Shown piece after piece: positions 5,345 through 38,763 of a stretch of DNA of 64,000 nucleotides. The notes below the pieces were generated by a model. It worked only from the letters and a program-made list of their open reading frames with translations, was not told where the DNA came from and did not search any database. The stretch spans positions 913,501 through 977,500 of the forward strand of contig NZ_CP152052.1 in assembly GCF_038637725.1 (NCBI RefSeq). The letters run 5' to 3'. A program made the translations under genes and the position numbers. This stretch comes from Psychrobacillus sp. FSL H8-0483. Lineage in GTDB: Bacteria; Bacillota; Bacilli; Bacillales_A; Planococcaceae. Positions within the stretch are counted from its first letter, which is position 1, and each line of letters opens with the position of its first letter.

Positions 5345-5357
5345 ATAAATATGAGTA

Positions 5358-5403
5358 CAAAAAACGTCTCAAGTGAATGAATATCACTCGAGACGTTTTT
5401 ATT
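5358..5403. terminator. Bidirectional terminator between convergent genes
   Basis: The stem AAAACGTCTC.AGTGA / TCACT.GAGACGTTTT has one mismatch and is flanked by A-rich and T-rich runs, so it can end transcription from both sides. It lies between the permease and the SLH-vWA gene, which point at each other. Confidence 0.85.
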
Positions 5404-5405
5404 AT

Positions 5406-7658: not shown

Positions 7659-7682
7659 CTAATCTTTCCTTTCTATTAATCA

Positions 7683-7835
7683 AGGGCTATGTTTTATAAC
7701 GAAAATCCGCGAGACTCCTGCAGTTTAACGGACTGCCAAGACCCCCAAGCGGGATTCTGGGAACAAATCCTACATTCGCCACATCCATGTGGTAACGGAT
7801 TTTCGTGCCTAACAAAATGAATGTTTAACAGAGCC
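7683..7835. repeat. Family R2 element, copy A (MITE-like)
   Basis: About 150 bp with imperfect inverted ends: the left end GGCTATGTTTTA..ACGAAAATCC mirrors the right end GGATTTTCG..TTTAACAGAGCC. It shares ACGGATTTTCG and the ACATCCATGTGG core (in either orientation) with copies near 23016 and 48056. Its right edge overlaps the stop codon (7835-7837) of the SLH gene that follows on the minus strand. It fills the whole gap between the two SLH genes. Confidence 0.6.
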
Positions 7836-9289: not shown

Positions 9290-9365
9290 GTTTATATTAT
9301 TTCCCTCTTTTCATGTCAAAGTTGAAGTGGCATGTAAACATAGATGCTCACATGCCACTTTCTAC

Positions 9366-11009: not shown

Positions 11010-11130
11010 TTTATTGCCTCCTTAAAATTTTTAGAATTTATATGTATACCTAATTTATCGGTAGAAAGTCTAATACTTTTATGGAAAAATGAGAATTTAT
11101 GTAATTCAAATGAAACAGAATGATAATATG

Positions 11131-11404
11131 TAAGTTAATTTCATAAATAGTACTTTGTTGTTAAAATACAAACATTTATACTTAAGTTGATTGAAGCGAC
11201 AGGCGGCGACTCCAGCGGGATGAATGAAACAGATAAGCCATCACAAACGACGCGTGAGCTGCGGTGATGGCTTATCGTTCACCCTGCGGAAAGCGTCCGC
11301 CTATAGCGGGAATAACTATACTTTATTTCGTTAAAATATATATTCCTTTAGTTTCCTTTTGTATTGTTCTTGTTTTTTTAAATTGGAATTATGAAATTGA
11401 TTCA
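11131..11404 (-). repeat. Family R1 MITE-like element, full-length copy
   Basis: Read on the minus strand it starts TGAATCAATTTC (11404-11393) and ends GAAATTAACTTA (11142-11131), imperfect terminal inverted repeats. The GC-rich core between (about 11185-11310) has GGCGACTCCAGCGGG on one side and CCGCGGAAAGC-like sequence on the other. The left flank (GAACAATAC.AAAGGAAACTAAA) and right flank (GACAAAGTACTATTT-like) are shared with the copies at 22772 and 24909. It occupies most of the gap between the exoprotein and the aminotransferase. Confidence 0.7.
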
Positions 11405-11446
11405 TGTACTTAAAGTTTTTGAAATTAATTTTAAAAAGGTATTTCC

Positions 11447-11461
11447 AATTTTCTTAAAAGT
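11447..11461 (+). promoter_or_regulatory. CodY box overlapping the aminotransferase promoter
   Basis: AATTTTCTTAAAAGT matches 13 of 15 positions of the CodY consensus AATTTTCWGAAAATT. It ends three bases before a TATAAT -10 hexamer (11464-11469), so binding would cover the promoter. CodY control of branched-chain aminotransferase genes is known in Bacillus (ybgE), which supports the call. Confidence 0.65.
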
Positions 11462-11540
11462 AGTATAATTGCATATAATATATTGCACACAGAAACTAGT
11501 TGCAATTTAATAAATTTTATTGATAGGGGAAAATTACGAC

Positions 11541-12611
11541 ATGAGTAGTCTAAAAATTCAAATTACAAAAAATGAAAACAAGAAAGAAAAAGTACCAGCA
11601 GACCAACTTCTATTTGGTAGAACGTTTACTGACCATATGTTTATTGCAGATTATACAGATGGTGTAGGCTGGCATGATTATCGAATTGTCCCTTATCAGC
11701 CAATAACTTTAGATCCTTCTGCAACTATTTTTCATTATGGGCAAACAGTTTTTGAAGGCATGAAAGCTTATCTAGCAGAAGACGGTGTTGTCCGTTTATT
11801 CCGTCCAGAAGAAAATATGAAGCGTATGAACATTTCATGTGACAGACTGAGCATGCCAAAAATCGATGAAGATCATGCGATTGAAGCATTGAAGCAGTTA
11901 ATTGAGGTTGATAAAGAATGGATTCCAGCTGAACCTGGTACATCTTTATATATTCGACCATTTATGATTGCAACCGAGGCTCATTTGGGGGTTTCCGCTG
12001 CTCTTACTTATAGTTTCATCATTATCATGTCACCTGTAGGTTCTTATTATAAAGAGGGTATTCACCCTGTTAAAATTCTTGTAGAAAATGAATATGTTCG
12101 TGCTGTTGCAGGGGGGACTGGTACTGCGAAAACTGCAGGAAACTATGCTTCCAGTTTAAAAGCACAGGAAGTGGCAGATCGTGAAGGGTACTCACAGGTA
12201 CTTTGGTTAGATGGGATTGAACGAAAATATATTGAAGAAGTAGGTAGCATGAATGTATTCTTCAAAATTGATGGAGAAGTTGTAACTCCTTCTTTAAACG
12301 GTAGTATTTTAGACGGTATTACGCGTAAATCGATTATCCAACTATTAAAGCATTGGAATGTTCCAGTTACAGAGCGTAAAGTTTCCATGGAAGAAATTCG
12401 CGAAGCTTATCTGAATGGAAAGTTAGATGAGGCTTTTGGAACGGGAACGGCCGCTGTTATTTCTCCAATAGGCGAGCTTCGCTGGAAAGGCGAGTTATTT
12501 TATGTGAATAACGGCGAAACTGGTGAGCTTTCATCCAAATTATATGAAACATTAACAGGAATTCAAAAAGGTAATCTTTTAGATCCTTTTGGATGGGTTG
12601 TTGAATTATAA
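11541..12611 (+). CDS. ilvE: Branched-chain amino acid aminotransferase
   Basis: A 356-residue class IV PLP-dependent transaminase that interconverts Leu, Ile and Val with their 2-keto acids. The Schiff-base lysine is K197 in TAKTAGNYASSLKAQ, and the family patches FHYGQTVFEGMKAY, EEVGSMNVFF and GTGTAAVISPI are all present. ATG 11541 is preferred over TTG 11520 because AGGGGA lies about 10 bases upstream of it and the resulting N-terminus fits the family. The gene stands alone behind a promoter with a CodY-like box. Full-length; close to B. subtilis YbgE/YwaA type enzymes. Confidence 0.93.
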   Translation: MSSLKIQITKNENKKEKVPADQLLFGRTFTDHMFIADYTDGVGWHDYRIVPYQPITLDPSATIFHYGQTVFEGMKAYLAEDGVVRLFRPEENMKRMNISCDRLSMPKIDEDHAIEALKQLIEVDKEWIPAEPGTSLYIRPFMIATEAHLGVSAALTYSFIIIMSPVGSYYKEGIHPVKILVENEYVRAVAGGTGTAKTAGNYASSLKAQEVADREGYSQVLWLDGIERKYIEEVGSMNVFFKIDGEVVTPSLNGSILDGITRKSIIQLLKHWNVPVTERKVSMEEIREAYLNGKLDEAFGTGTAAVISPIGELRWKGELFYVNNGETGELSSKLYETLTGIQKGNLLDPFGWVVEL

Positions 12612-26693: not shown

Positions 26694-27803
26694 GTGTTTA
26701 ATTTTAATGAATTGGGACAGGGAATTATTAATGAATTGAGTCTTTTGATTAAAGAAGAAGTGATTTTGACTGATGCACGAGGGTTTATTCAAGTGAGTAC
26801 TGATCCAACGAGAGTAAACCAGTTTCATGAAGGGGCGCTGCTTTGCATAAAAGCAGAGAAATTACTCCATATGAAAGAATCGGAAGTCTCTAATTTGCGT
26901 GGGGTTCGAAAGGGAGTGGTGATTCCTATAATAATCGATGACAAGCCTATAGCAATATTAGGAATAACGGGTGATCCGAAAAAAATACAACCTCAAGCTT
27001 TACTTATTAGAAGAGTGGTGGAGTTGTTTATACAAGACTCGCTGAAAAGACAAGAAAAGGATGAAAAAATTAGGGAATTTGAATTTTTTATGATCGATTG
27101 GATTACTTCTAATACAAGAGATAAACAGTTTTACAATAGAGCAGAATTATTAGATATCGAAGTTGAGTTATATACACAAGTTGTAATGATTCAAGCATTG
27201 GATGAGAAAAGAAGATTCAAAACAGAGGATGTAGATTTTTTCATGTCCGTCCAGTTAATTCATCCATTACTAAAAGCGAGTAGGTGGGGGCAAGAAAAAA
27301 TCATTCTAGTTTTACCTGAGATGGATCAAACAAAACTGAAAATAGAGTTGGAAAATTTATTGTTGCACGTTAAACGTAAAATGAAAATGGAACTCGCTGT
27401 TGGCATTGGAGAACGCGTAGCGTATAGTGAGTTGGCACTTTCGTTTAATCAATCCGAGCGAGCGGTAAAAGTATCTCAAAAGTATAGACGAATTGTATTT
27501 GAACGAGAATTACTATTCGATTTAATCATACATAGTTTGCCAAAGGATACGAAAGAACGATTTATTGAAAGAACAGTTGCTCCTTTACAAAAAGATCAAG
27601 AATTACTTCATAATTTACGTGTGTGGTTTAGTGAAAATCAATCGATGAAAAATACAGCTCAGAAGCTGCACATTCATAAAAATACATTGGCATATAGACT
27701 TCAAAAAGTTGAAGATATGACAGGCCTTTATATTTCGGAGTTCCATGATGTCTTTCTCATTTATTTGGGAATTCGACTTTTGGATGAAATAAATAGTGAG
27801 TAA
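26694..27803 (+). CDS. CdaR-family transcriptional regulator (glycolate module, YsfB-like)
   Basis: A 369-residue regulator with the N-terminal sugar-diacid recognition domain (FHEGALLCIKAEKLL, IAILGITGDPKKI), a middle region and a C-terminal PucR-type helix-turn-helix (IHKNTLAYRLQKVEDMTGL). It starts at GTG. It precedes glcD and glcF, an order known in Bacillus as ysfB-ysfC-ysfD, so it most likely activates the glycolate oxidase operon and the long gene run behind it. It is a paralogue of 1647-2732. Confidence 0.88.
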   Translation: MFNFNELGQGIINELSLLIKEEVILTDARGFIQVSTDPTRVNQFHEGALLCIKAEKLLHMKESEVSNLRGVRKGVVIPIIIDDKPIAILGITGDPKKIQPQALLIRRVVELFIQDSLKRQEKDEKIREFEFFMIDWITSNTRDKQFYNRAELLDIEVELYTQVVMIQALDEKRRFKTEDVDFFMSVQLIHPLLKASRWGQEKIILVLPEMDQTKLKIELENLLLHVKRKMKMELAVGIGERVAYSELALSFNQSERAVKVSQKYRRIVFERELLFDLIIHSLPKDTKERFIERTVAPLQKDQELLHNLRVWFSENQSMKNTAQKLHIHKNTLAYRLQKVEDMTGLYISEFHDVFLIYLGIRLLDEINSE

Positions 27804-27807
27804 AAAC

Positions 27808-27841
27808 AAAAAAGCATCTATTACTGGATGCTTTTTTGTGT
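27808..27841 (+). terminator. Terminator between the regulator and glcD
   Basis: 10-bp stem AAAAAGCATC / GGATGCTTTTTT with loop TATTACT and a T run. It separates the regulator from the downstream operon. Confidence 0.85.
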
Positions 27842-27896
27842 GCCTGCACAAAATTATGTCTAAAATGTGACGAGAAAATTGTTCTAAAATCTATAT

Positions 27897-27914
27897 ATTC
27901 TAAAAGATTAGAAT
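27897..27914. promoter_or_regulatory. Inverted repeat, candidate CdaR-type operator
   Basis: ATTCTAA-AAGA-TTAGAAT is a perfect 7-bp dyad directly upstream of the cre site of glcD. A partial repeat (GTTCTAAAAT) lies just before it. Its sequence differs from the candidate operator of the glycerate module. Confidence 0.4.
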
Positions 27915-27925
27915 AATAGAATAAA

Positions 27926-27939
27926 TGAAAACGCTTTCC
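27926..27939. promoter_or_regulatory. CcpA cre site before glcD
   Basis: TGAAAACGCTTTCC matches 13 of 14 positions of the cre consensus and lies about 5 bases before the AGGAGGA ribosome site, so it is well placed for carbon catabolite repression of the whole operon. Confidence 0.75.
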
Positions 27940-27957
27940 TTAAGAGGAGGATCGTAT

Positions 27958-29367
27958 ATGGAAGAACACGTTATCGAATTATTAATTGCTATTACGGGAA
28001 AAGAAAATGCTAAAACAACGACAGCCCAAAAGCTTGCTTATTCATATGATGCTACAGCAAACTTTCAAGCGATGCCCGATCTAGTATTATCACCAGCAAA
28101 TACGGAAGAAATACAAGAGATAGTTAAAGTATGCTCTGAACATAAAATTCCTATCATTCCACGTGGATCTGGAACAAATTTAGCAGCAGGAACTGTTCCA
28201 AGCGCAGGTGGAGTAGTCCTACTGTTTAATAGAATGAATCGCATAGTAGAATTTGATGAAGAAAACCTTACCATAACTGTACAACCAGGTGTAATTACGA
28301 AGGATATCAATGAATTAGTTGAGCTTAAAGGTCTTTTTTATCCACCTGATCCAAGCTCCATGAAAATCTCCACTATTGGGGGCAATGTTAGTGAAAATTC
28401 TGGTGGATTAAGAGGATTAAAATACGGTGTGACTAGGGATTATGTGAAGGGATTAACTATTGTATTGCCAAATGGAGAAATTCTGAAAACAGGCGGAAAA
28501 CTTACAAAAGATGTTGCTGGATATGATTTAACTAGTTTATTTGTTGGTTCAGAAGGAACAATCGGTGTAATAACAGAAATTATTCTTTCTTTAATTCCAT
28601 CGCCCCAAACAAAACAAACCTTACTTGTTTTTTATGATCAATTAGAAACTGCTGCTCAGACGGTATCTTCCATAATAGCAGCAAAAGTGGTTCCTGCTAC
28701 TTTGGAGTTTATGGATAAAGGAACTATTGAAAATGTAGAAGAATACATGAAAATTGGTCTTCCAACAGATTGTGAAGCAATGCTTCTTATTGAACAGGAT
28801 GGAGACTTACAAACCGTAGAAAGAGATATGCAATTGGTACATAAAATTTGTATGGAGCACGGAGCGAAATATACCCAGCTAGCACAATCAGCAGAAGAAG
28901 CATTACAACTTAGTACTGCAAGACGGGTAGCATTATCGGTTCTGGCTAGAAAAAGACCTACGACCATTTTAGAAGATGCCACGGTGCCAAGATCTGAAAT
29001 TGCTACTATGGTAAAAGAAATTCAACGAATAGCAGACAAATACAAATTAATGATCTATACGTTTGGTCATGCAGGTGATGGGAATCTACATCCTACTTGT
29101 TTAACAGATGCTCGTGATAAAGAGGAAATGGAAAGAGTAGAAGCAGCTTTCAGTGAAATCTTCGATAGTGCCATTCGCCTAGGGGGAACGATTACGGGTG
29201 AGCATGGTGTAGGAGAAATGAAAGCACCTTACCTTGAATGGAAGATTGGAGTTACTGGAATCGAAGTAATGAAGGGGATAAAACAATCCCTAGATCCATT
29301 AAACATTATGAACCCTGGAAAGATTTTTGCAAAGGATCGTAAACAGAGAGTTGTGGTACAAACATGA
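27958..29367 (+). CDS. glcD: Glycolate oxidase FAD-binding subunit GlcD (YsfC-like)
   Basis: A 469-residue FAD-linked oxidase: a PCMH-type FAD domain at about 30-210 (IIPRGSGTNLAAGTVP, DPSSMKISTIGGNVSENSGG, DVAGYDLTSLFVGSEGT) and a C-terminal oxidase domain (FGHAGDGNLHPT, GTITGEHGVGEMKAPYLEW). It oxidises 2-hydroxy acids such as glycolate or lactate to 2-keto acids, passing electrons to GlcF. ATG 27958 follows AGGAGGA; the frame is open 33 bases earlier but that ATG would overlap the cre site. It overlaps glcF by 4 bases. Confidence 0.9.
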   Translation: MEEHVIELLIAITGKENAKTTTAQKLAYSYDATANFQAMPDLVLSPANTEEIQEIVKVCSEHKIPIIPRGSGTNLAAGTVPSAGGVVLLFNRMNRIVEFDEENLTITVQPGVITKDINELVELKGLFYPPDPSSMKISTIGGNVSENSGGLRGLKYGVTRDYVKGLTIVLPNGEILKTGGKLTKDVAGYDLTSLFVGSEGTIGVITEIILSLIPSPQTKQTLLVFYDQLETAAQTVSSIIAAKVVPATLEFMDKGTIENVEEYMKIGLPTDCEAMLLIEQDGDLQTVERDMQLVHKICMEHGAKYTQLAQSAEEALQLSTARRVALSVLARKRPTTILEDATVPRSEIATMVKEIQRIADKYKLMIYTFGHAGDGNLHPTCLTDARDKEEMERVEAAFSEIFDSAIRLGGTITGEHGVGEMKAPYLEWKIGVTGIEVMKGIKQSLDPLNIMNPGKIFAKDRKQRVVVQT

Positions 29368-30680
29368 CAAGCCTTTTACAAGAAAAAATGCAACAAGCGT
29401 TTGTAACACATGTAGATGATGATCGATTAATGGACTGTATGCGATGTGGGTTCTGTCTCCCAGCATGTCCTACCTATATCCATTCTGGTTTTGATGAAAC
29501 TCAGTCACCACGAGGACGAATCGCATTAATGAAAGCCGTACGAGATGGACAAATCATGTGGGATGGATCCGTAGAAGAATCTTTTGACCTTTGCTTAGGT
29601 TGTAGAGCATGTGAACCTGCATGTCCTGCAGGTGTGCAATACGGCACTTTAATAGAAGAAACAAGGGAAGCTGTACTTTCGGTAAAGCCTCAATCCTTGA
29701 AGGAAAAAGTTATTCGCAAAGGTGCATTTGATAACTTGTTTGCAGATCAAAAGAAAATGCAAACAGCTGTTAATCTCGTAACATTTTATCAAAAATCAGG
29801 CTTACAAAAAGTAGTAAGGAAAATAGGGTTTTTAGAGCTATTTCCACCTTTTATGAAAGAGATGGAAAGTGTATTGCCAGATCCTCCAAAACGAAAAAAA
29901 GAAGAGACGGAAAAAGTAGAAGTAAAGGTGAAAGTCGCTTTTTTTGCAGGTTGTTTAATGGACACGATGTTTAAAGAGACAAATAGAAATACAATAGCAA
30001 TCTTAGAAAAATTAGGTTGTGAAGTACTTATTCCAAAAAACCAGCAATGTTGCGGTGCACTACACGGACATAGTGGAGAAATAGAAAAATCGAAACGTAA
30101 TGCTAAAGCAAATATCGAAGCATTTAACTTAGATGATATTGACTTCATTGTGAACAATGCAGGTGGTTGCGGTGCTTTTTTAGATGAATATGACAAGTTA
30201 TTCACAAATGAGCCAATCATATATGAAAAAGCAAAACAGTTTACTGCAAAGCAAATAGATATATCTTCGTTATTATCAAAACTAGGAATTATTGATTACT
30301 TAGAGAAATTACCTAAAAGTTCATCCACAGGACTTGTCACTTATCAAGATTCCTGCCATTTACGAAACGTAACTGGCGTGAAGGACGAGCCTCGTAAAAT
30401 ATTGAAAGCGGTTCCAGATTGTACGTTTGTGGAGTTACCAGATGCAGAGCTTTGTTGCGGTTCTGCTGGAATATATAATTTACTTCAACCTAAAATGGCA
30501 TCTCTTATATTAGAGTCTAAAATGCAGAAGGTGAAAGAAATTAGTGCAGGCACAGTGATTACAACCAATCCTGGGTGTTTGTTGCAAATGAAGGTAGGAA
30601 TCGAACGAGAAGGGCTATCTTCTACAACGCAAGCATTGCATTTGGTGGATTTTATTTATGGGAAAATGTTTGACCAATAA
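29364..30680 (+). CDS. glcF: Glycolate oxidase iron-sulfur subunit GlcF (YsfD-like)
   Basis: A 438-residue protein with two 4Fe-4S clusters (CMRCGFCLPACP near residue 22 and CLGCRACEPACP near 75) and two CCG domains (FFAGCLMDTMF..QQCCGALHGHSG and SCHLRN..ELCCGSAGIYNLLQP). It receives electrons from GlcD and passes them to the respiratory chain. It is translationally coupled to glcD by a 4-base overlap. No GlcE-type subunit is present, which is usual for the Bacillus form. Confidence 0.9.
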   Translation: MTSLLQEKMQQAFVTHVDDDRLMDCMRCGFCLPACPTYIHSGFDETQSPRGRIALMKAVRDGQIMWDGSVEESFDLCLGCRACEPACPAGVQYGTLIEETREAVLSVKPQSLKEKVIRKGAFDNLFADQKKMQTAVNLVTFYQKSGLQKVVRKIGFLELFPPFMKEMESVLPDPPKRKKEETEKVEVKVKVAFFAGCLMDTMFKETNRNTIAILEKLGCEVLIPKNQQCCGALHGHSGEIEKSKRNAKANIEAFNLDDIDFIVNNAGGCGAFLDEYDKLFTNEPIIYEKAKQFTAKQIDISSLLSKLGIIDYLEKLPKSSSTGLVTYQDSCHLRNVTGVKDEPRKILKAVPDCTFVELPDAELCCGSAGIYNLLQPKMASLILESKMQKVKEISAGTVITTNPGCLLQMKVGIEREGLSSTTQALHLVDFIYGKMFDQ

Positions 30681-30700
30681 AAAAATGGAGGGGTTATTTT

Positions 30701-31714
30701 ATGAAAAGAAAAGGTTGGAAATTAGGTTCGCTAGGGTTAGCTGCAATGCTTTTATTAGGGGCATGTTCATCAAATTCTGCGGAGGGAACAGAAGGTAAAG
30801 AATACAAATTGAAAATGTCGGTAACAGTAAATGATTCCTCTACATGGTATGCGGCTGCTAAAAAGCTGTCAGATGATGTGAACAAAGAAACAGATGGTCG
30901 TATTACAATTGAGGTTTTCCCAAATGAACAATTATCCGGTGGGGATTCTGGAAAAGCTGTAGAAATGCTTTCGAAAGGTTCAACGGATTTAACATTTAAC
31001 TCAACTATCATTTATTCGATCTTAGACGATCGTTTCGGCGTAGCAAGTGCTCCGTTCTTGTTTGATAATACAGACCAAGTAGATAAAGTATTTAAAGGGA
31101 CCGGCGGAGAAGAGATTGCTAAAATCCTCGAAGAAAAAGGAGTTCATCCTTTAGGGTTTGGGGAAAACGGATTCCGTCAAATTACGAATAGTACAAAAGA
31201 AATTAAAGTACCTGCAGATTTAAAAGGATTAAAAATACGAATTCCAGGAATCACGATGTATACAGATTTATATCGCGAACTTGGAGCAGATCCGACAACA
31301 ATGACTTTCTCAGAAGTATTTACATCACTTCAACAAGGAACGATTAGTGGACAAGAAAATCCAATTGACGTTATTTATTCTTCTAAATTAAATGAAGTAC
31401 AGGATTACTTAACGTTGTGGAACTACTCATATGACCCACTTGTTTTAGGAATGAACAAAAAACTATTTGAATCTATGAGTGAAGAGGATCAAGAAATATT
31501 CACAAGACTTGGAAAAGAAGCTGCAGAATACCAAGTGAAAATTGCTCGTGAAAAAGAAACGAAACAAATTGAAGAATTAAAAGCAGCGGGGATAAAAGTA
31601 TATGAACCAACAGAAGCAGATTTAGCTGAATTTAAAGAAGCTGTTCAACCAATTTACGAAAAATACAAAGACATTTGGGGAGCAGATTTACTAAAAGCAT
31701 TTCAAGAACGCTAA
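30701..31714 (+). CDS. dctP: TRAP transporter substrate-binding lipoprotein (DctP family)
   Basis: A 337-residue exported binding protein with a lipobox LLGAC (lipidated C22), so it is tethered outside the membrane. The DctP fold signature is clear: IPGITMYTDLYRELGADPTTMTF-type region with the conserved Arg that grips the carboxylate of the ligand, then EVFTSLQQGTISGQENP. Family members bind C4-dicarboxylates and many other organic acids; the cargo here is not known. It is the first of three TRAP genes and lies 20 bases after glcF. Confidence 0.9.
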   Translation: MKRKGWKLGSLGLAAMLLLGACSSNSAEGTEGKEYKLKMSVTVNDSSTWYAAAKKLSDDVNKETDGRITIEVFPNEQLSGGDSGKAVEMLSKGSTDLTFNSTIIYSILDDRFGVASAPFLFDNTDQVDKVFKGTGGEEIAKILEEKGVHPLGFGENGFRQITNSTKEIKVPADLKGLKIRIPGITMYTDLYRELGADPTTMTFSEVFTSLQQGTISGQENPIDVIYSSKLNEVQDYLTLWNYSYDPLVLGMNKKLFESMSEEDQEIFTRLGKEAAEYQVKIAREKETKQIEELKAAGIKVYEPTEADLAEFKEAVQPIYEKYKDIWGADLLKAFQER

Positions 31715-31731
31715 CACTAGGGGGAATGAGC

Positions 31732-32217
31732 GTGGATCGAGTACTTAAAAGATTAGAAGAGTGGATAGTTGTACTGGTAATGTCCATCATGTCCTTAATT
31801 GCATTTGCTAATATCCTCTCTAGAGGATTAGTTGGTTATTCGCTTTCTTTTACCGAGGAAATTACGATTAATTTATTTGTATTTCTTACCTTTGTAGGAA
31901 CGGCTATAGGTGTGCGGCAAAACGCACATCTTGGCTTTACGCTCATTTATGATCGTGCGAATGGAGTGTTCAAAAAGGGCATTACACTATTAGTTGGTGT
32001 ATTAATGGGAGGCTTATTTTTAGTTCTTGTATATTTTGGGCTTCAAATGATGTTATACCAAATGGAGCTTGGACAAAAAACGCCTTCTCTTGGCTGGCCA
32101 CAATGGTTGTTTTCATTAGCAATGCCTTTAGGAGCACTTCTTTGTTTATATCGCACAGTCCAAGTAACGATTATGGAATTACGTGAAGAAAGCTTGCAAG
32201 GAGGAGAATCAGTATGA
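31732..32217 (+). CDS. dctQ: TRAP transporter small membrane subunit (DctQ family)
   Basis: A 161-residue protein with four membrane helices and family wording FTEEITINLFVFLTFVGTAIG and R.NAHLG. It bridges the binding protein and DctM. GTG 31732 is chosen because AGGGGGA lies 6 bases upstream; the ATG at 31726 would sit too close to that site. Its end overlaps dctM by 4 bases. Confidence 0.85.
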   Translation: MDRVLKRLEEWIVVLVMSIMSLIAFANILSRGLVGYSLSFTEEITINLFVFLTFVGTAIGVRQNAHLGFTLIYDRANGVFKKGITLLVGVLMGGLFLVLVYFGLQMMLYQMELGQKTPSLGWPQWLFSLAMPLGALLCLYRTVQVTIMELREESLQGGESV

Positions 32218-33536
32218 CAGCTATTATTTTGTTTGGATTGTTTATGCTTCTCGTATTTCTCCGAATTCCGATTGCGGTTGCACTGGCTATTTCTTCTATT
32301 GCCATTCTATTTACAGGAAGTGGGATATTCGGTTTAGAGTTAGTGGCAGATATTATGTACACGAGTGTTTCGAAGTTTACTTTACTCGCTATTCCATTCT
32401 TTGTATTAGCTGGAGTAATCATGGAGCAAGCAGGTATTTCAAAACGCCTAATTGATTTTGCTCAATCATTAGTGGGACATAGAAAAAGTGGTATCGTTTT
32501 CGTAACTGTTTTAGTTGCCATTTTCTTCGCGGCAATTTCTGGATCTGGTCCAGCAACCGTTGCGGCAATCGGCGGGATTTTAATACCAGCGTTGATTGGA
32601 AATGGTTATAAAAAGGAGACAGCTGGAGCCCTTGTTGCAAGTTCTGGAGCAATTGGAATTGTCATTCCTCCAAGTATCGCTTTCATCGTATTTGCAGTTG
32701 TAGCTGGTGACCAAATTCCAGTATCCATTGCTCGACTTTTCATCGCAGGTATCATTCCGGGAATTCTACTGGGAATTGGATTTGTTTTAGCTGCAATGTA
32801 TGTTCGATGGAGACAAGAGAAGAAAGAAGGTCCAATAGAAGGTTTTGTCCAAAGACAAAAAGCAACTGGTAAAGAAAAATGGACTGCATTTGTTGATGCT
32901 TTATGGGGACTAATGATTCCCGTTATTATTCTAGGCGGTATTTATGGTGGTTTCTTTACACCAACTGAAGCAGCGGTTGTTGCAGTATTCTACGGATTAT
33001 TTGTCGGATTCTTTGTGTACAAAGAATTATCTCTGAAAAGTCTATTTGATATTTTAGTAGGTGCATCTGTTCAAACGGCAACGGTAATGTTTATCGTTAG
33101 TGCAGCCTCTGTTTTTGCTTATATCATTACAACAGAGCAAATTGCTACTACTCTATCAGATGCGATGTTAGGAGTATCTGATAATAAAATAATTATTCTA
33201 TTAATAGTAAACGTAATTTTACTAATTGCAGGTATGTTTATTGATGCAGTTTCGGCATTTTATATTCTTGTACCAATCTTAGCTCCAGTGATGATTATGC
33301 TTGGTGTAGATCCAACGGTATTTGGTGTATTTATGACGGTAAACTTAGCAATTGGTTTATTTACACCACCAGTAGGATTGAATTTATACGTAGCAACTGG
33401 AATATCCAAAACGTCTCTTGGAGAAATATCACGGGGGGTTGTACCATTTGTAGTTTCTTCCATCATAATCTTGTTAATCATTACGTATGTACCAGTAATA
33501 TCAACATTTTTACCAGATTTGATGAATGTTAAATAA
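32214..33536 (+). CDS. dctM: TRAP transporter large permease (DctM family)
   Basis: A 440-residue membrane protein with about 12 helices and the DctM hallmarks ISGSGPATVAAIGGILIPAL, GVIIPPS-like GIVIPPSIAFIV, FFTPTEAAVVAVFYG and LFTPPVGLNLYV. It is the Na+-coupled translocation channel of the TRAP system. It overlaps dctQ by 4 bases and is followed after about 20 bases by the SDR gene. Confidence 0.92.
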   Translation: MTAIILFGLFMLLVFLRIPIAVALAISSIAILFTGSGIFGLELVADIMYTSVSKFTLLAIPFFVLAGVIMEQAGISKRLIDFAQSLVGHRKSGIVFVTVLVAIFFAAISGSGPATVAAIGGILIPALIGNGYKKETAGALVASSGAIGIVIPPSIAFIVFAVVAGDQIPVSIARLFIAGIIPGILLGIGFVLAAMYVRWRQEKKEGPIEGFVQRQKATGKEKWTAFVDALWGLMIPVIILGGIYGGFFTPTEAAVVAVFYGLFVGFFVYKELSLKSLFDILVGASVQTATVMFIVSAASVFAYIITTEQIATTLSDAMLGVSDNKIIILLIVNVILLIAGMFIDAVSAFYILVPILAPVMIMLGVDPTVFGVFMTVNLAIGLFTPPVGLNLYVATGISKTSLGEISRGVVPFVVSSIIILLIITYVPVISTFLPDLMNVK

Positions 33537-33556
33537 TTTATTAAGGGGATGAAATT

Positions 33557-34318
33557 ATGAGAGTGAAAGGTCAAACAGCAATTATTACAGGGGGAGCAAG
33601 TGGAATTGGAGCAGAGTCTGCTGTTTTTCTTGCAAAAGAAGGTGCAAATATTGTTTTAGTAGACTTAAATTCTTGTGCAAAGACAATTGGTAAAATTCGA
33701 TCTACAAATGCGGATGCTCAAGTATTAGAATGCTTAGGGGACATTCGAGATGCTGAGTTTGTGAAAGCAACAGTAGCTAGAGCATCCGACACTTTTGGTG
33801 AGTTACATATTCTAGTGAATAATGCAGGTACATGCGGGCGTTTGAGTATTGAAGATATGACAATGGATGTATGGGATAGAGATTTAGATACAAATGTAAA
33901 AGCGGCCTTTTTATTTATCCAAGCAGTAGTGTATCCGCATATGATGGAACAGAAATATGGTCGAATTATTAATATTAGCTCGATTTCAGGAATAAACGGA
34001 GGAGTTTCTTCTGGTGAAGGAGACAGCTCCAGAAGATCTGGTCCTGCCTATTCAGCTTCTAAAGGAGCTATCATAGCGTTAACCAAATGGGTAGCAAAAG
34101 AGTTGGGTGAGCAAGGAATTACATGTAACTCGGTAGCGCCGGGTGCAACCGCTACAGGGATAACATCAGGAGTTGCTTATGATTTAAGCAAACAAGTTGT
34201 CAAACGAATGGGTACACCAGGAGATATAGCAGAGGCAGTTCTATATTTCGCCTCACCAGAATCAAGCTATGCAACAGGTCAAGTGCTTCAAGTCGATGGA
34301 GGTTACAATTTTGGATGA
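33557..34318 (+). CDS. Short-chain dehydrogenase/reductase (FabG-like)
   Basis: A 253-residue classical SDR: the cofactor loop GGASGIG, NNAG, and catalytic Ser in INISSIS, Tyr/Lys in YSASKGAII. The acidic residue after the second strand (LVDLNS) suggests NAD(H). It contains a short insert (GGVSSGEGDSSRRSG) before the catalytic Tyr, longer than in FabG. In this operon it probably oxidises a hydroxyacyl or alcohol intermediate. It overlaps the PPC-domain gene by 8 bases. Confidence 0.85.
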   Translation: MRVKGQTAIITGGASGIGAESAVFLAKEGANIVLVDLNSCAKTIGKIRSTNADAQVLECLGDIRDAEFVKATVARASDTFGELHILVNNAGTCGRLSIEDMTMDVWDRDLDTNVKAAFLFIQAVVYPHMMEQKYGRIINISSISGINGGVSSGEGDSSRRSGPAYSASKGAIIALTKWVAKELGEQGITCNSVAPGATATGITSGVAYDLSKQVVKRMGTPGDIAEAVLYFASPESSYATGQVLQVDGGYNFG

Positions 34319-34784
34319 TCGAATCCAAGCAGTGCTTGATACTAGCTCCAATCGCATTGTCGGACGACTCATGAAAGATGTTGATCTATTTGGAGGAATA
34401 AAAGAGGTGTGCAGAAGATTTGATATAGAGGCTGCACAATTTCAATGCATTGGTTCGCTTTCATATGCAACTTATGTACAATTGGAAAAAACAAAAAAAG
34501 GTGTACTTCAATATTCACCAAAGATAGTGACTGATACAGAAGTTGAGCTACTAAATGGAAATGGTTTCGTTGGATATGGATTAGATGGTGAGTTAGATAT
34601 ACACTTTCACGGAATGTTCGTAGATTGTAACCAACATATAAGTGGTGGACACTTTCTAGATGGTGAAAATCCAGTTGCAATCACGGTGGAATTCATTTTA
34701 TTACCTATCGAAGGTGTGCAACTAAAACGTGGCCCAGATCCATTTTTTAATTTACCTGTATTTCAGTTTTCCAAGAAGGAGTGA
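34311..34784 (+). CDS. PPC-domain (DUF296) protein
   Basis: A 157-residue protein with one PPC/DUF296 domain over most of its length: GGIKEVCRRFDIEAAQFQCIGSL-type start and the conserved metal-site region (LDIHFHGMFVD, ISGGHFL) with several His. TTG 34311 is chosen because GGAGG lies 8 bases upstream; the frame is open further back without a site. PPC proteins form trimers; some act as DNA-binding proteins in plants, while bacterial roles are mostly unknown. Finding it embedded between an SDR and an acyl-CoA synthetase suggests a metabolic role, which is inference. Confidence 0.75.
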   Translation: MDDRIQAVLDTSSNRIVGRLMKDVDLFGGIKEVCRRFDIEAAQFQCIGSLSYATYVQLEKTKKGVLQYSPKIVTDTEVELLNGNGFVGYGLDGELDIHFHGMFVDCNQHISGGHFLDGENPVAITVEFILLPIEGVQLKRGPDPFFNLPVFQFSKKE

Positions 34785-34789
34785 GTGGG

Positions 34790-36271
34790 ATGGAAACATT
34801 AGGACAATTAGCGTTAAAATCTGCTGCAGCTTATCCAAATAAGACGGCAATTAAGGATCAATATCGTTCATTTACCTATAAAGATATGATGGACCGAGCA
34901 TACGCGCTTTCTACGTATTTTCATGAAAAAGGTTTGGAAAAAGGCGATCGAATTGCAATTCTAATGTCTAATCGACTGGAGCATATTGAATTAGATGTAG
35001 CTGTTTCTCTTGCTGGGCTAATAAAAGTACCATTAAATTATCGTCTTCATCCAAAAGAACATCAATATATGTTGAATGACGCAAGTCCAAAACTAATTAT
35101 TGGAGATCAAGCATTGATTGACCCTATTGGTTCGTCCATTGAAGTTCTAATAATTGGTGAAGCTTACGAAGATGCGGTGCAGAAGAATTCAGGGAAGCAA
35201 TTTAAAGAAAATGTCGATGAAGATGATTTATTTGCGATTATGTACACATCAGGTACTACAGGTAATCCAAAAGGAGTTATGTTGTCCCATCGTAATATGA
35301 TTGCAGGTGCATTATCCTTGGCACAAGTATGTGAAGTGGATTATGACGATGTGATTGGACATGTTGCTCCATTAACGCATGGTAGTAACTTCTTGTCCCA
35401 TGTGTCTTGGTTATATGGATCTACGCAAGTTGTATTTCACAAATTTGAACCGGAGGAGTTTGTGAATGACCTGAAGAAAGAGGGAGTATCAGTCATCTTT
35501 TTAGTACCAACAATGGTTAATTTAATGATTCAACATCCAAGTTTTGATCCTTCTCAATTATCTACATTAAAAACGATTAATATGGCTGGATCTCCTATTG
35601 CAGCTAGCAAATTAGAACAAGCACTAAATCAAACTGGTTCTATTTTTGCAGAAACTTATGGACAAGTAGAAGCACCGATGTGCATCACCATGATGCCGAA
35701 AAAAGAGCTTGGTTTACGTTTAGAATCATGTGGACGAGTAGGGACTTTTGTTGATGTGAAGATTGTAGATGCTGAAGGCAATGAAGTGAAGGACGGCGAA
35801 GTTGGTGAAATCATTTGTAAGGGATCACTTGTTATGAAGGGATACTGGAATAATGAGAAAGCAACAAATGATACGTTAAAAGATGGCTGGCTGCATACAG
35901 GTGATTTAGGGTGGAAGAGTCCAGAGGGATACGTGCATATTGTCGATAGAAAGAAAGACGTTATAATTTCTGGTGGTGTTAATATATATCCTCGAGAAGT
36001 GGAAGAAGTACTAAACTTACACCAAGGTGTAAAAGAAACTTGTGTTATTGGAGTTCCTGACGATGAATGGGGAGAAAATGTGGTAGCCTATGTTGTTCCA
36101 AATGGTAAGGAAACCGTTACTACAGAAGCATTAATAGCTCTTTGTATAGAAAACTTGGCGAGCTTTAAAAAGCCGAAATCTATTCATATTGTGAATGAAT
36201 TACCGAAGAGTTCCTATGGGAAAATATTAAAACGAGAAATGCGTGACCAATATAAGGAGGTTATTGTATGA
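34790..36271 (+). CDS. AMP-forming acyl-CoA synthetase
   Basis: A 493-residue ANL-superfamily ligase that activates a carboxylic acid to its CoA thioester via an acyl-AMP. Core motifs: phosphate loop YTSGTTGNPKG at 152-162, AETYGQVEAP, TGDLGWKSPEGY, and the C-terminal hinge and lysine region DRKKDVIISGGVNIYPREVE with SSYGKILKREMR. The substrate cannot be read from sequence; the size suits medium-chain or branched acids. ATG 34790 has AAGGAG 8 bases upstream. It overlaps the thiolase gene by 4 bases. Confidence 0.88.
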   Translation: METLGQLALKSAAAYPNKTAIKDQYRSFTYKDMMDRAYALSTYFHEKGLEKGDRIAILMSNRLEHIELDVAVSLAGLIKVPLNYRLHPKEHQYMLNDASPKLIIGDQALIDPIGSSIEVLIIGEAYEDAVQKNSGKQFKENVDEDDLFAIMYTSGTTGNPKGVMLSHRNMIAGALSLAQVCEVDYDDVIGHVAPLTHGSNFLSHVSWLYGSTQVVFHKFEPEEFVNDLKKEGVSVIFLVPTMVNLMIQHPSFDPSQLSTLKTINMAGSPIAASKLEQALNQTGSIFAETYGQVEAPMCITMMPKKELGLRLESCGRVGTFVDVKIVDAEGNEVKDGEVGEIICKGSLVMKGYWNNEKATNDTLKDGWLHTGDLGWKSPEGYVHIVDRKKDVIISGGVNIYPREVEEVLNLHQGVKETCVIGVPDDEWGENVVAYVVPNGKETVTTEALIALCIENLASFKKPKSIHIVNELPKSSYGKILKREMRDQYKEVIV

Positions 36272-37401
36272 CAAACGTTTACATCCATGGGATCGGCATG
36301 ACACAGTTTGGTACATTTGTAGATCGTACAATGAAAGATATGTTGCTTGATGCTTGTATTCAAGCGCTAGAAGATGCAGGTAACCCAAAAGTAGACGCTG
36401 TATACGTAGGGAACTTCATGGGTGGGTCTATTTACAATCAAGAAATATTAGGAGCAATTGTTGCCAATGAACTTGGACTTGGTTTTATTCCTACTGCAAA
36501 AGTGGAAGGAGCATGTGCTTCAGGAGGAATTGCGTTAAGACAAGGTATTCTTGGAATATTGAGTGGGGAATACAATACGGTTCTCGTTGCAGGTGTAGAA
36601 AAAATGAAGCACGCCTCTACTGTTGACGTTACACAAGCGATTAATGCAGCGATGGATAACGATTCCAATGAAAAAAATGCTGGTTTAACATTCCCAGGAT
36701 TCTTTGGAGTACTCGCCAATCGATATTTCCACGAAACAGGAGCTTCTAAAAAGCATTTGGCAATGGTAGCTTTGAAAAATAGGGAACATGCATTAAATAA
36801 CCCATTAGCTCAATTTAGAAAACCTGCAACATTTGATGAGATTATGGAAGCTCGTATGATAACGAATCCATTAGGATTGTTTGACTGTTCACCTATGACG
36901 GATGGAGCAGCAGCAGTTGTTATATCCAAGGAGAAATCAACCATTCATATTCGTTCTTCTGCACAAGCATCTGGTCCTACTCAAATGCAAGATGCGGAAG
37001 ATTTATTATCTATTCCTGCTATACGTGAATCCGGTAGAATTGCCTATGAAAAAGCGGGAGTAGGGCCAAAAGATATTGATGTAGTAGAAATTCATGATTG
37101 TTTTTCGATGACAGAGTTGATTGCAATTGAAGAATTAGGATTTTTTAAGAAGCGAGAAGGATGGAAAGCTATAGAGGAAGGACGAACTAAATCCACTGGC
37201 GATAAACCAGTCAATACAAGTGGAGGTCTACTCTCACGTGGACACCCAATCGGAGCTACAGGTGTTGCACAAATTTACCAATTGGTTCGTCAATTACGTG
37301 GAAATGCAGCAAACCAAGTAGATAATCCAAGACTTGCTCTTGCGCAAAATCTTGGGGGTACAGGTTCTTATTCTACTGTACATATTTTGGAAAGGGTGTG
37401 A
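36268..37401 (+). CDS. Thiolase-like protein of the SCP2/Ltp type
   Basis: A 377-residue thiolase-fold protein. Nucleophilic Cys is C83 in GACASGG; H276 and C278 lie in VEIHDCFSMTE; H326 lies in the GHPIGATG motif. The C-terminal CxG motif of classical thiolases is absent (LGGTGS instead), which is typical for the SCP2-thiolase/Ltp2 group. Such proteins cleave 3-ketoacyl-CoAs or act as retro-aldolases and often need a DUF35 partner, which is encoded next. It therefore probably performs the carbon-carbon cleavage step of this pathway. Confidence 0.85.
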   Translation: MTNVYIHGIGMTQFGTFVDRTMKDMLLDACIQALEDAGNPKVDAVYVGNFMGGSIYNQEILGAIVANELGLGFIPTAKVEGACASGGIALRQGILGILSGEYNTVLVAGVEKMKHASTVDVTQAINAAMDNDSNEKNAGLTFPGFFGVLANRYFHETGASKKHLAMVALKNREHALNNPLAQFRKPATFDEIMEARMITNPLGLFDCSPMTDGAAAVVISKEKSTIHIRSSAQASGPTQMQDAEDLLSIPAIRESGRIAYEKAGVGPKDIDVVEIHDCFSMTELIAIEELGFFKKREGWKAIEEGRTKSTGDKPVNTSGGLLSRGHPIGATGVAQIYQLVRQLRGNAANQVDNPRLALAQNLGGTGSYSTVHILERV

Positions 37402-37408
37402 GACTTGG

Positions 37409-37720
37409 ATGAAAGTGTATAAATGTAATTCGTGTGACTATCAAAGTATATCCAAAAAATACGTTTGTCCGAAATGCTTTAAAGGGAAACTGATAGAGGA
37501 AATAGTAGCTTCAGATGGATCTGTTTATAGTTTTACGGACATTCATATCGCACCAGCTGAATTCGCAGACATTACGCCTTACACAGTTGCACTTGTACAA
37601 TTAAATGCCGCCAATGTAAAAGTGACAGTTCGAGTAGATTCTCCCGTTCAAATTGGAGATAAGGTTAAATTAGATAGGTTTGAAAATAGTACCTATTTAT
37701 ATAAGAAGATATCAGAGTAA
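37409..37720 (+). CDS. DUF35 Zn-ribbon/OB-fold partner of the thiolase-like protein
   Basis: A 103-residue protein: an N-terminal zinc ribbon with four Cys (CNSC and CPKC) at about residues 5-25, then an OB fold (SFTDIHIAP, VRVDSPVQIGDKVKL). DUF35 proteins form stable complexes with thiolases and thiolase-like aldolases. It follows the thiolase gene after 7 bases. ATG 37409 gives the natural zinc-ribbon start; the open frame before it lies inside the thiolase gene. Confidence 0.85.
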   Translation: MKVYKCNSCDYQSISKKYVCPKCFKGKLIEEIVASDGSVYSFTDIHIAPAEFADITPYTVALVQLNAANVKVTVRVDSPVQIGDKVKLDRFENSTYLYKKISE

Positions 37721-37725
37721 GAAAT

Positions 37726-37771
37726 CCCTGTGCTTGGAATAAATGATCCTATTTCAAGCGCAGGTTTTGTT
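37726..37771 (+). terminator. Terminator at the end of the glc-TRAP-thiolase operon
   Basis: Stem CCTG.GCTTG / CAAGC.CAGG extended by AAT/ATT pairs, loop in AAATGATCCT, followed by TTTTGTTGT. It separates the DUF35 gene from the BASS carrier. Confidence 0.65.
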
Positions 37772-37788: not shown

Positions 37789-38763
37789 ATGAAATTTATT
37801 CCAAAAGCGTCGCATATTATTTCGAAATACTTACCTGCTTGGATCATTTTATTTTCGTTTATGGCTTATTTTTTTCCAAACCTTTTTATTCCGATACGCA
37901 GTTTTACAGGTGCAGGATTAGGGATGATCTTTTTGTTGATGGGATTGTCATTATCAACAGAAAAATTGTTATTGGTCATTAAAAAACCAAAGCATGCACT
38001 TTTAGGCGTCTTATTAAAATGGACTGTAATGGTCACAGTTACAATTGTCGTTGCTTATCTATTTTTCAAAGATAACGCTGAATTAGCAACGGGAATTATT
38101 TTAGCTGGCACTGTTCCAAGCGGGACTTCCGCTAATATATATACATTTATTGCTGGTGGGGAAGCAGCATTGAGTATAACAATGGCCACAATGGATACGA
38201 TTATTTCTCCAATTCTTACACCAACTTTAGTACAATTTTTTGCAGGGAAACTTATTCCTATCGCATTTTTGCCCTTGTTTTTAAATATTATCTACATTGT
38301 ATTTCTTCCATTGTTTTTGGGATTATTTCTTCAATGGAAGTTTGCTAAAAAAATAGAAGTAATTAAACCTTATACTGCGGTACTTTCCCAGATTGCACTT
38401 TTTATAGTAGTGTTATCCGTTATTTCTGGTGCCCAAAACTCGCTTCAAACAAATTTGTCCTCATTACCGCTTATTTTTATAGCTGTCTTTTTTCAAGTTT
38501 CTATTCCGATGTTAGCAGGTTATTGGATTTCGAAGCTCTTAAAAGTACCCGAACAAAATGCTCGTGCAATTTTGTTTCACACTGGTATATGTAATACAGC
38601 ATTAGCAGCTACCCTTGCAATGGAACATGTTAGTTCATTAGCAGCGGTACCTTCTGTAGCGAATATGGTCATCAATTTAACTTTAGGTGCTTTTGTAGCA
38701 AACTTTTTTTCGAGTAAAAAGGAAAAAGTGACTGTTTTCTCCCAAGCTAAAAACCCCCAATAA
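37789..38763 (+). CDS. BASS-family sodium-coupled carrier (PanS-like)
   Basis: A 324-residue membrane protein with about 9-10 helices. Family patches: GLGMIFLLMGLSLS, LAGTVPSGTSANIYTFIAGG (the crossover/sodium site) and HTGICNTALAATLA. Members carry bile acids, pyruvate, pantoate or other organic anions. GGAGG lies before the ATG. It is separated from the operon upstream by a terminator but points the same way; it may export or import an acid of the same pathway. Confidence 0.78.
   Translation: MKFIPKASHIISKYLPAWIILFSFMAYFFPNLFIPIRSFTGAGLGMIFLLMGLSLSTEKLLLVIKKPKHALLGVLLKWTVMVTVTIVVAYLFFKDNAELATGIILAGTVPSGTSANIYTFIAGGEAALSITMATMDTIISPILTPTLVQFFAGKLIPIAFLPLFLNIIYIVFLPLFLGLFLQWKFAKKIEVIKPYTAVLSQIALFIVVLSVISGAQNSLQTNLSSLPLIFIAVFFQVSIPMLAGYWISKLLKVPEQNARAILFHTGICNTALAATLAMEHVSSLAAVPSVANMVINLTLGAFVANFFSSKKEKVTVFSQAKNPQ

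Follow-up and report, generated by a model that had tools for sequence, protein, structure and literature searches.

The window analysed here, a 64,000-nucleotide stretch of Psychrobacillus sp. FSL H8-0483 (4.14-Mb contig NZ_CP152052.1, positions 913,501 to 977,500), carries ten + strand genes between 27958 and 37720 that form a real, deeply conserved operon composed of known enzyme families and undescribed as far as the literature was searched. The genes encode two subunits of a 2-hydroxyacid oxidase (glcD, glcF), a TRAP importer (dctPQM), a short-chain dehydrogenase/reductase (SDR), a protein of the PCC/PPC family (DUF296), an AMP-forming CoA ligase, a thiolase and its DUF35 partner, in that order. 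We propose, at a probability of roughly 40%, that the operon imports and degrades a C4-C6 2,3-dihydroxy or 2-hydroxy-3-oxo acid by way of the SDR, PCC, CoA ligase, thiolase-DUF35 and GlcDF. In agreement with the earlier note on this DNA, no described pathway with this gene set was found in the open-licence literature, and one could still be in print. The components of the operon are as follows.

27958..29367, + strand: glcD, FAD 2-hydroxyacid oxidase subunit, glycolate-oxidase-like (TIGR00387)
29364..30680, + strand: glcF, Fe-S subunit (PF02754, Fer4 families)
30701..31714, + strand: dctP, TRAP solute-binding lipoprotein (PF03480, 5e-86; nearest solved chain 4p8b, E 9e-55)
31732..32217, + strand: dctQ, small TRAP permease (PF04290, 6e-26, for the open reading frame (ORF) from 31675)
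32214..33536, + strand: dctM, large TRAP permease (PF06808, 4e-116)
33557..34318, + strand: SDR dehydrogenase (PF13561, 4e-52)
34311..34784, + strand: PCC/DUF296 protein with an HxHG...GGH motif (PF03479, 1.5e-15, for the ORF from 34269)
34781..36271, + strand: AMP-forming acyl-CoA ligase (PF00501, 2e-83; PF13193)
36268..37401, + strand: SCP2-type thiolase with C83, H276-D-C278-F and H326 (PF22691 and others)
37409..37720, + strand: DUF35 (zinc-ribbon/OB-fold) thiolase partner (PF01796, 3e-10)
37727..37764, + strand: operon terminator, 15 pairs followed by a T run (terminator scan)

The earlier note had described this run as ten overlapping or nearly overlapping genes, and Pfam and NCBIfam confirm the families it named; no gap exceeds 20 nt. 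Overlaps of 4 nt join glcD to glcF, dctQ to dctM, PCC to the ligase and the ligase to the thiolase, and SDR and PCC share 8 nt. The gaps lie between glcF and dctP (20 nt), dctP and dctQ (17 nt), dctM and SDR (20 nt), and thiolase and DUF35 (7 nt). Two starts were corrected: glcD most likely begins at the ATG at 27958 behind GAGGAGG, the ORF start at 27925 falling within a cre-like site, and PCC most likely begins at the TTG at 34311. For dctQ, the start is the GTG at 31732 behind GGGGGAA. The run is bounded in front by a CdaR-type regulator and behind by the strong terminator, the only such structure in the + strand scan; five candidates within the run have 5-9 pairs each.

Conservation of the gene set carries the main finding. 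A PCC orthologue (at least 44% identity) occurs in 18 of 151 related genomes, with a distant PCC match alone in 12 more, and a thiolase match of at least 68% identity occurs in 19, namely the same 18 and genome G139. A search among named genomes returned 52 loci. The counts exclude ten of these, three from Deltaproteobacteria and seven distant paralogues (L097-L103), and the 42 Bacillales loci of this type come from Psychrobacillus, Sporosarcina, Planococcus/Planomicrobium, Ureibacillus, Bhargavaea, Chryseomicrobium, Ornithinibacillus, Pseudogracilibacillus, Alkalibacillus, Tenuibacillus, Paenisporosarcina, Metabacillus, Peribacillus, Priestia and two "Bacillus sp.". At script-set identity thresholds, thiolase and PCC were recognised in all 42, the ligase in 41, and DUF35, SDR and each TRAP gene in 40; cdaR (at least 30% identity) was present in 35, glcD and glcF in 32 each, and a BASS-family transporter gene in 22. 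The order and strand of dctP-dctQ-dctM-SDR-PCC-ligase-thiolase are kept in every one of the 39 loci that hold all seven. The three exceptions are a cut contig (L083), a locus without a recognised ligase and DUF35 (L074), and one without TRAP genes and SDR (L093). This conservation of gene order is far beyond chance. The neighbourhood comparison suggested in the earlier note gives a divided answer, with the core from dctP to the thiolase kept in 39 of 42 loci and glcDF in only 32. Ureibacillus acetophenoni (L075), whose name hints at acetophenone use, also carries the operon, an association that is probably coincidental.

In the route that we propose, DctPQM, a complete TRAP set, would import a C4-C6 2,3-dihydroxy or 2-hydroxy-3-oxo carboxylic acid, and the SDR would oxidise the 3-hydroxyl to give the 2-hydroxy-3-oxo acid. 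PCC would then shift the ketol acid between its 2-hydroxy-3-oxo and 3-hydroxy-2-oxo forms or change its stereochemistry; decarboxylation appears less likely here. The ligase, AMP-forming by family, would make the CoA thioester, and thiolase-DUF35, judging by its active-site residues, would thiolyse this to an acyl-CoA and a 2-hydroxyacyl-CoA (glycolyl- or lactoyl-CoA). Finally, GlcDF would oxidise the freed 2-hydroxy acid (glycolate or lactate) to glyoxylate or pyruvate, while CdaR would sense the substrate and CcpA would repress the operon. The order of these steps is predicted, as are the substrate, the PCC reaction and the regulation.

The cleavage step has the clearest signature. Thiolase residues C83, H276, C278 and H326 are invariant in 18 of 18 orthologues, and HDCF, GHP and the nucleophilic Cys are found in all 42 loci, two of which read GACASA instead of GACASG. 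According to PMC12329534, SCP2 thiolases are marked by HDCF and DUF35-bound steroid aldolases by YDHF or YDCY. The window enzyme has the nucleophilic Cys, HDCF and the GHP His of true SCP2-type thiolases, and these HDCF residues lead us to expect thiolysis, not retro-aldol cleavage. A retro-aldolase of the Ltp2 or Sal type was rejected, given HDCF in 18 of 18 and no catalytic-Tyr YDHF/YDCY. The nearest solved structures include 7yvy and the acetoacetyl-CoA thiolase 6esq, and the protein reaches 417 bits against PRK06064 (cutoff 420).

This last likeness is consistent with a ketone-body type of route, in which the SDR would oxidise an imported 3-hydroxy acid such as 3-hydroxybutyrate and, after activation, a thiolase of the acetoacetyl-CoA type would cleave it, with glcDF and PCC as side functions. 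The SDR, too, weakly matches the 3-hydroxybutyrate dehydrogenase model TIGR01963 (163 bits, cutoff 307). However, it lies below the cutoff of every NCBIfam model among the matches listed (25 of 231), and neither PCC, which is strongly conserved, nor glcDF, which is frequent, would be accounted for, so that we consider such a route quite unlikely.

The SDR of the window retains TGxxxGIG, NNAG and YxxxK, and an acidic residue after beta-2 suggests NAD use. All three motifs occur in 36 of 40 SDRs, and the four exceptions are exactly the Sporosarcina ureae group (L068-L071), whose SDRs have neither NNAG nor the YxxxK catalytic Tyr. The gene still sits in its operon position and may be decaying or re-used. 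The same group has no glcDF: two other membrane-protein-like genes stand where it would be, and the only GlcD relative in S. ureae is 31% identical. TRAP, PCC, ligase, thiolase and DUF35 are nevertheless retained. Loss of glcDF and of the SDR active site in one group, with the rest kept, suggests that GlcDF and the SDR serve one route and that the S. ureae group imports an already oxidised acid.

GlcD itself scores 558.3 bits against TIGR00387, just under the equivalogue cutoff of 567.9 (scored on the ORF from 27925), and is the sole GlcD match in its own genome at E<=1e-60. Where glcDF is joined to the core, its arrangement differs: it lies upstream in most loci, two Pseudogracilibacillus loci (L081 and L084) have it at the other end and in reverse orientation, and cdaR stands behind glcDF in L072, L073 and L075. 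In Peribacillus frigoritolerans, the core (L088) is preceded by a gene that by eye resembles IclR genes. The glcF, glcD and cdaR genes of this species form a locus of their own on that contig, at a distance of about 0.47 Mb, with identities of 51, 65 and 32% to their window counterparts. Overall, cdaR-glcDF and TRAP-SDR-PCC-ligase-thiolase-DUF35 are separable modules. The unlinking in relatives that the earlier note named as damaging to a single pathway is therefore seen for glcDF in Peribacillus, whereas the genes from TRAP to DUF35 stay together. These distributions, with glcDF as an accessory, agree with the suggestion of that note that the substrate of GlcDF is a C2 hydroxy acid set free by the pathway.

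The Peribacillus locus and the S. ureae group could also speak for two adjacent pathways, in which cdaR-glcDF would perform ordinary glycolate oxidation and merely be co-transcribed with an independent TRAP-SDR-PCC-ligase-thiolase pathway. We hold this to be very unlikely, since the repeated joining of glcDF to the core in varied arrangements suggests a shared product and since glcDF is lost in the same group as the SDR active site. Alternatively, GlcDF may act first, converting an imported 2-hydroxy acid to a 2-oxo acid that PCC would isomerise before CoA activation and thiolysis. The promoter-proximal position of glcDF would suit such an order, as would the HIBADH-like or Tdh-like dehydrogenase genes that accompany PCC in other Bacillota, but the core is kept in loci without glcDF and the SDR step would be redundant where both occur; of the explanations weighed here we find this the least probable.

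The PCC protein is the most interesting part of the operon because of its likely enzymatic role. Its family membership, as assigned in the earlier note, is secure (PF03479, 58 bits against a gathering score of 25, the sole Pfam family on this protein); its role, which that note passed over, is probably that of a metalloenzyme rather than of the DNA-binding protein that it is usually labelled, including in several plasmid annotations. The predicted structure (predicted local distance difference test score 94.8) matches the fold of alpha-acetolactate decarboxylase (ALDC), and H98, H100 and H114 are invariant in 18 of 18 orthologues; it is this fold, together with the conserved HxH...GGH motif, that points to a metalloenzyme. 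PF03306, the ALDC family, matches neither PCC nor any other protein of this genome. Proof of homology between PCC and ALDC at the sequence level was dropped, the profile comparison being not significant.

PCC recurs beside TRAP genes in other bacteria, and with different partners. In Psychrobacillus sp. NEAU-3TGS (L048/L091), a locus without glcDF carries E1-alpha, E1-beta, E2 and E3 genes behind DUF35, along with a 2-hydroxy-3-oxopropionate-reductase-like gene (307 bits, cutoff 397). Other Bacillota, including the gut genus Vescimonas, combine PCC and TRAP with all four of these genes (L134, L152) or part of them (L135, L137); L134 adds a threonine-dehydrogenase-like gene and a sigma-54-type activator in front, and L137 and L152 add HIBADH-like genes. 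Likewise, the deltaproteobacterial loci L094 and L096 hold PCC and TRAP with E1-E2-E3 genes and an SDR, and L092 has E1 genes, an SDR and a Tdh-like gene in a neighbouring unit. The E1 genes match pyruvate-dehydrogenase models, and their acetoin specificity would be a matter of likeness.

Such neighbourhoods raise the possibility that PCC is a true ALDC-like decarboxylase, turning a 2-hydroxy-3-oxo acid of the acetolactate type into an acyloin that an acetoin-dehydrogenase-type complex would split, with the ligase-thiolase of the window as a parallel route or serving an aldehyde or acid fragment. The ALDC fold and motif, the recurrence of PCC with TRAP and complete E1-E2-E3 sets (in L134, L152, L094, L096 and L048/L091, and in partial form in L135, L137 and L092), the activator of L134 and the match of the L134 DctP to 4p8b, putatively an acetolactate receptor, all agree with it. 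On the other hand, the best E1 relative in the genome of the window is 34% identical, hence no obvious acyloin enzyme, the E1 models are those of pyruvate dehydrogenase, and the ligase and thiolase remain unexplained. We judge it unlikely, and it would gain should PCC prove to be a decarboxylase. A direct acetoin route in the window was rejected, there being no close Aco-like E1 in its genome.

A set similar to that of the window is found on alphaproteobacterial plasmids. Thirty plasmid records hold a DctP like that of L134, and nine were examined around it: one from Thermus, where the related TRAP comes after E1-alpha, E1-beta and a lipoyl protein, and eight from Alphaproteobacteria (Skermanella, Sulfitobacter, Martelella, Loktanella, Roseinatronobacter, Alloyangia, Octadecabacter and Paracoccus), with DctP 48-54% identical to that of L134. 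The PLSDB gene tables are incomplete, and the absence of a listed gene was checked by tblastn only. An acyl-CoA synthetase and a thiolase are present in all eight and an SDR in seven (not found in Loktanella). Seven have a tandem PCC (not found in Skermanella; in Martelella it lies in two frames), and six have a regulator annotated as IclR. Neither glcD nor glcF was detected by tblastn in these eight stretches, and no separate DUF35 was found there. The enzymes are only 30-37% identical to their window counterparts, which suggests that the set was put together independently or a very long time ago. Across these systems a hydroxy-acid dehydrogenase, PCC and TRAP recur, and the carbon-carbon cutter is either ligase-thiolase or a thiamine pyrophosphate (TPP) complex. 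Deep synteny and this similar set both support the view put forward in the earlier note, of one catabolic unit in which CoA activation is followed by cleavage by a thiolase. The tandem PCC proteins themselves (L149, L153-L156, L158) span 230-281 residues and are barely detected by Pfam; in the three that were read (L149, L154, L155), HxHG...GH occurs in the first half only.

One clue to the substrate comes from the importer. Chain 4p8b is also the nearest solved chain for DctP of L048 (E 3e-57) and L134 (6e-84). A review (PMC5812351) reports TRAP receptors for 2-acetolactate and for pantoate/erythronate, and several receptors near the isethionate receptor hold pantoate or erythronate, according to PMC11668362. 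In L136, a PCC relative is flanked by genes resembling those for 3-oxo-tetronate kinase (OtnK) and 3-oxo-tetronate-phosphate decarboxylase (OtnC); replacement of OtnI by PCC there was considered and found weak, with five PF01261 matches on other contigs of that genome. Near the PCC relative of L094 lies a gene above the TIGR00465 cutoff for ketol-acid reductoisomerase (309 against 226 bits), and this gene may simply belong to normal biosynthesis. Both acetolactate and 3-oxo-tetronate count among the 2-hydroxy-3-oxo acids, a shared feature that underlies our explanation. As hints of pantoate, the best, weak match of the BASS neighbour is PanS (161 bits, cutoff 400), and L092 has a PanB gene next to PCC. 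Pantoate degradation is not favoured, as it has no place for the ligase and thiolase.

Several points weigh against the import and thiolytic degradation of such an acid. DctP does not fall clearly within one isofunctional group (190 bits to 4p8b, 174 to 7bbr, 168 to 4pdd), and 4p8b is only putatively a Ralstonia eutropha receptor modelled with (S)-2-acetolactate. The OtnK- and OtnC-like matches of L136 are below their cutoffs (272 of 350 and 100 of 250 bits). The operon holds no thioesterase or CoA-transferase for the 2-hydroxyacyl-CoA, and glcDF is absent from 10 of 42 loci, including the cut contig L083 and L093, where TRAP and SDR are missing as well. In the S. ureae group the SDR seems to be inactive, which would make its step dispensable in that lineage. 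A PCC protein within a CoA route is the weakest link, and an awkward one if PCC decarboxylates like ALDC; the putative metal is deduced from motif and fold alone, and PCC and ALDC profiles show no significant similarity (hhalign probability 0.4%, hmmsearch about 1 bit). Finally, distant PCC genes shared no common neighbourhood in a survey of 52 Bacillota stretches, comprising 40 further ones from a 67-genome match list (one being the Peribacillus glc locus) and 12 earlier loci, with PCC itself recovered by BLAST labels in 35 of the 52.

A bolder form of the proposal, which we regard as unlikely, would assign to the bacterial PCC/PPC (DUF296) proteins of this clade the ALDC fold and a metal-dependent activity on ketol acids, either isomerisation or decarboxylation. 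The operon would then be the first pathway to consume a 2,3-dihydroxy acid, plain or branched (a tetronate or a relative of acetolactate), by thiolysis of a 2-hydroxy-3-oxoacyl-CoA to glycolyl- or lactoyl-CoA. The same logic would have come together on more than one occasion, in Bacillota and in Alphaproteobacteria, each time around one of a family of related TRAP importers. The S. ureae group, having lost both oxidation steps, would take up the keto form directly. The operon marks a carbon route common to many environmental bacilli, with an alphaproteobacterial counterpart. For a protein family still annotated as DNA-binding, it also offers a role as an enzyme that can be put to the test. If the proposal is true, it represents a thiolase-based outlet for small polyhydroxy acids, and the enzyme set might make 2,3-dihydroxy acids in reverse.

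The regulator, the upstream signals and the downstream neighbour are listed below; the cre site, dyad, terminator and CdaR gene reported in the earlier note are all present.

26694..27803, + strand: CdaR/PucR-type regulator, Diacid_rec plus PucR helix-turn-helix (Pfam PF05651, 1e-30; PF13556, 4e-18)
27806..27839: stem-loop separating cdaR from glcD, a probable terminator (listed by the scan on the - strand)
27896..27915: perfect 8-bp inverted repeat with a 4-nt spacer, TATTCTAA-AAGA-TTAGAATA (read from the sequence)
27925..27940, + strand: cre-like (CcpA) site ATGAAAACGCTTTCCT, 1 mismatch to WTGNAANCGNWWNCAW
37789..38763, + strand: BASS-family transporter gene beyond the operon terminator (TIGR00841, 129 bits, below cutoff)

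On the + strand, the T run of the stem-loop sits inside the stem. The dyad is a candidate CdaR operator, and a shorter form, TATTC...GAATA, is present in L053 and L054. We take WTGNAANCGNWWNCAW to be the cre consensus, and an equally good match arose in 2 of 200 mononucleotide shuffles. In 22 of the 42 loci, cdaR lies at most 700 nt upstream of glcD (the other 20 were not scored); together with the window these give 23 stretches, several from close relatives and hence not independent. A site with at most one mismatch occurs in 12 of the 23, window included, and the other 11 have 2-4 mismatches. Control by CcpA and CdaR is a prediction from these recurring sites. In Psychrobacillus vulpis (L054), cdaR and glcD are much farther apart, and the sequence between them contains repeated GC-rich stretches, possibly inserted repeat elements. 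The BASS transporter may carry a product of the pathway.

Two further PCC neighbourhoods were observed. In L097-L103 (Psychrobacillus and Lysinibacillus; region 4800-12400), a distant PCC paralogue, of a type not found in the genome of the window, is divergent from a conserved block with a gene that by eye resembles a CoA-transferase gene, an FMN lactate-oxidase-like enzyme, an enoyl-CoA hydratase, MetQ-type ABC transporter genes and an aminotransferase (families tested for four genes of L097). PCC here once more adjoins a 2-hydroxy-acid oxidase. In L139 and L140 (Bacillota), PCC lies among split transketolase halves, two zinc alcohol dehydrogenases, a PFL2-family glycyl-radical enzyme and its activase-like gene, with TRAP genes (families tested on L139 only), another route around PCC.

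In summary, the operon combines parts of several known systems. Like glycolate oxidase GlcDF and the Bacillus cdaR-glcDF arrangement, it pairs GlcF with a GlcD that falls just short of the TIGR00387 cutoff, and it has a CdaR-type regulator; unlike them, its ten genes lack glcE, and glcDF is joined to a TRAP-CoA-thiolase module. Acetoin dehydrogenase operons are of the AcoABCL type, and E1-E2-E3 genes of that general type are linked to PCC/TRAP relatives in other phyla, whereas the window operon has none and the best E1-alpha relative in its genome is 34% identical. ALDC (PF03306) shares the fold of the modelled PCC but has about 250 residues, against one domain of about 157. Tetronate catabolism (LtnD, OtnI, OtnK, OtnC), as set out in PMC12540250, likewise oxidises a hydroxy acid to a 3-oxo intermediate; a search of the ten operon genes found no OtnK or OtnC gene, and a CoA ligase and thiolase stand in place of the kinase and phosphate-decarboxylase. 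With BbsAB (benzoylsuccinyl-CoA thiolase), Ltp2 and Sal the window shares an SCP2-type thiolase fold and an adjoining small DUF35 partner, but it differs from the Ltp2/Sal steroid aldolases in its true-thiolase HDCF, in place of YDHF/YDCY, and from known thiolase-DUF35 assemblies in having TRAP, SDR and PCC instead of a hydratase or HMG-CoA synthase. Finally, engineered reverse beta-oxidation, as described in PMC9118988, leads from glycolyl-CoA to 2,3- and 3,4-dihydroxybutyrate, and these glycolyl-CoA routes are the reverse of the thiolysis proposed here.

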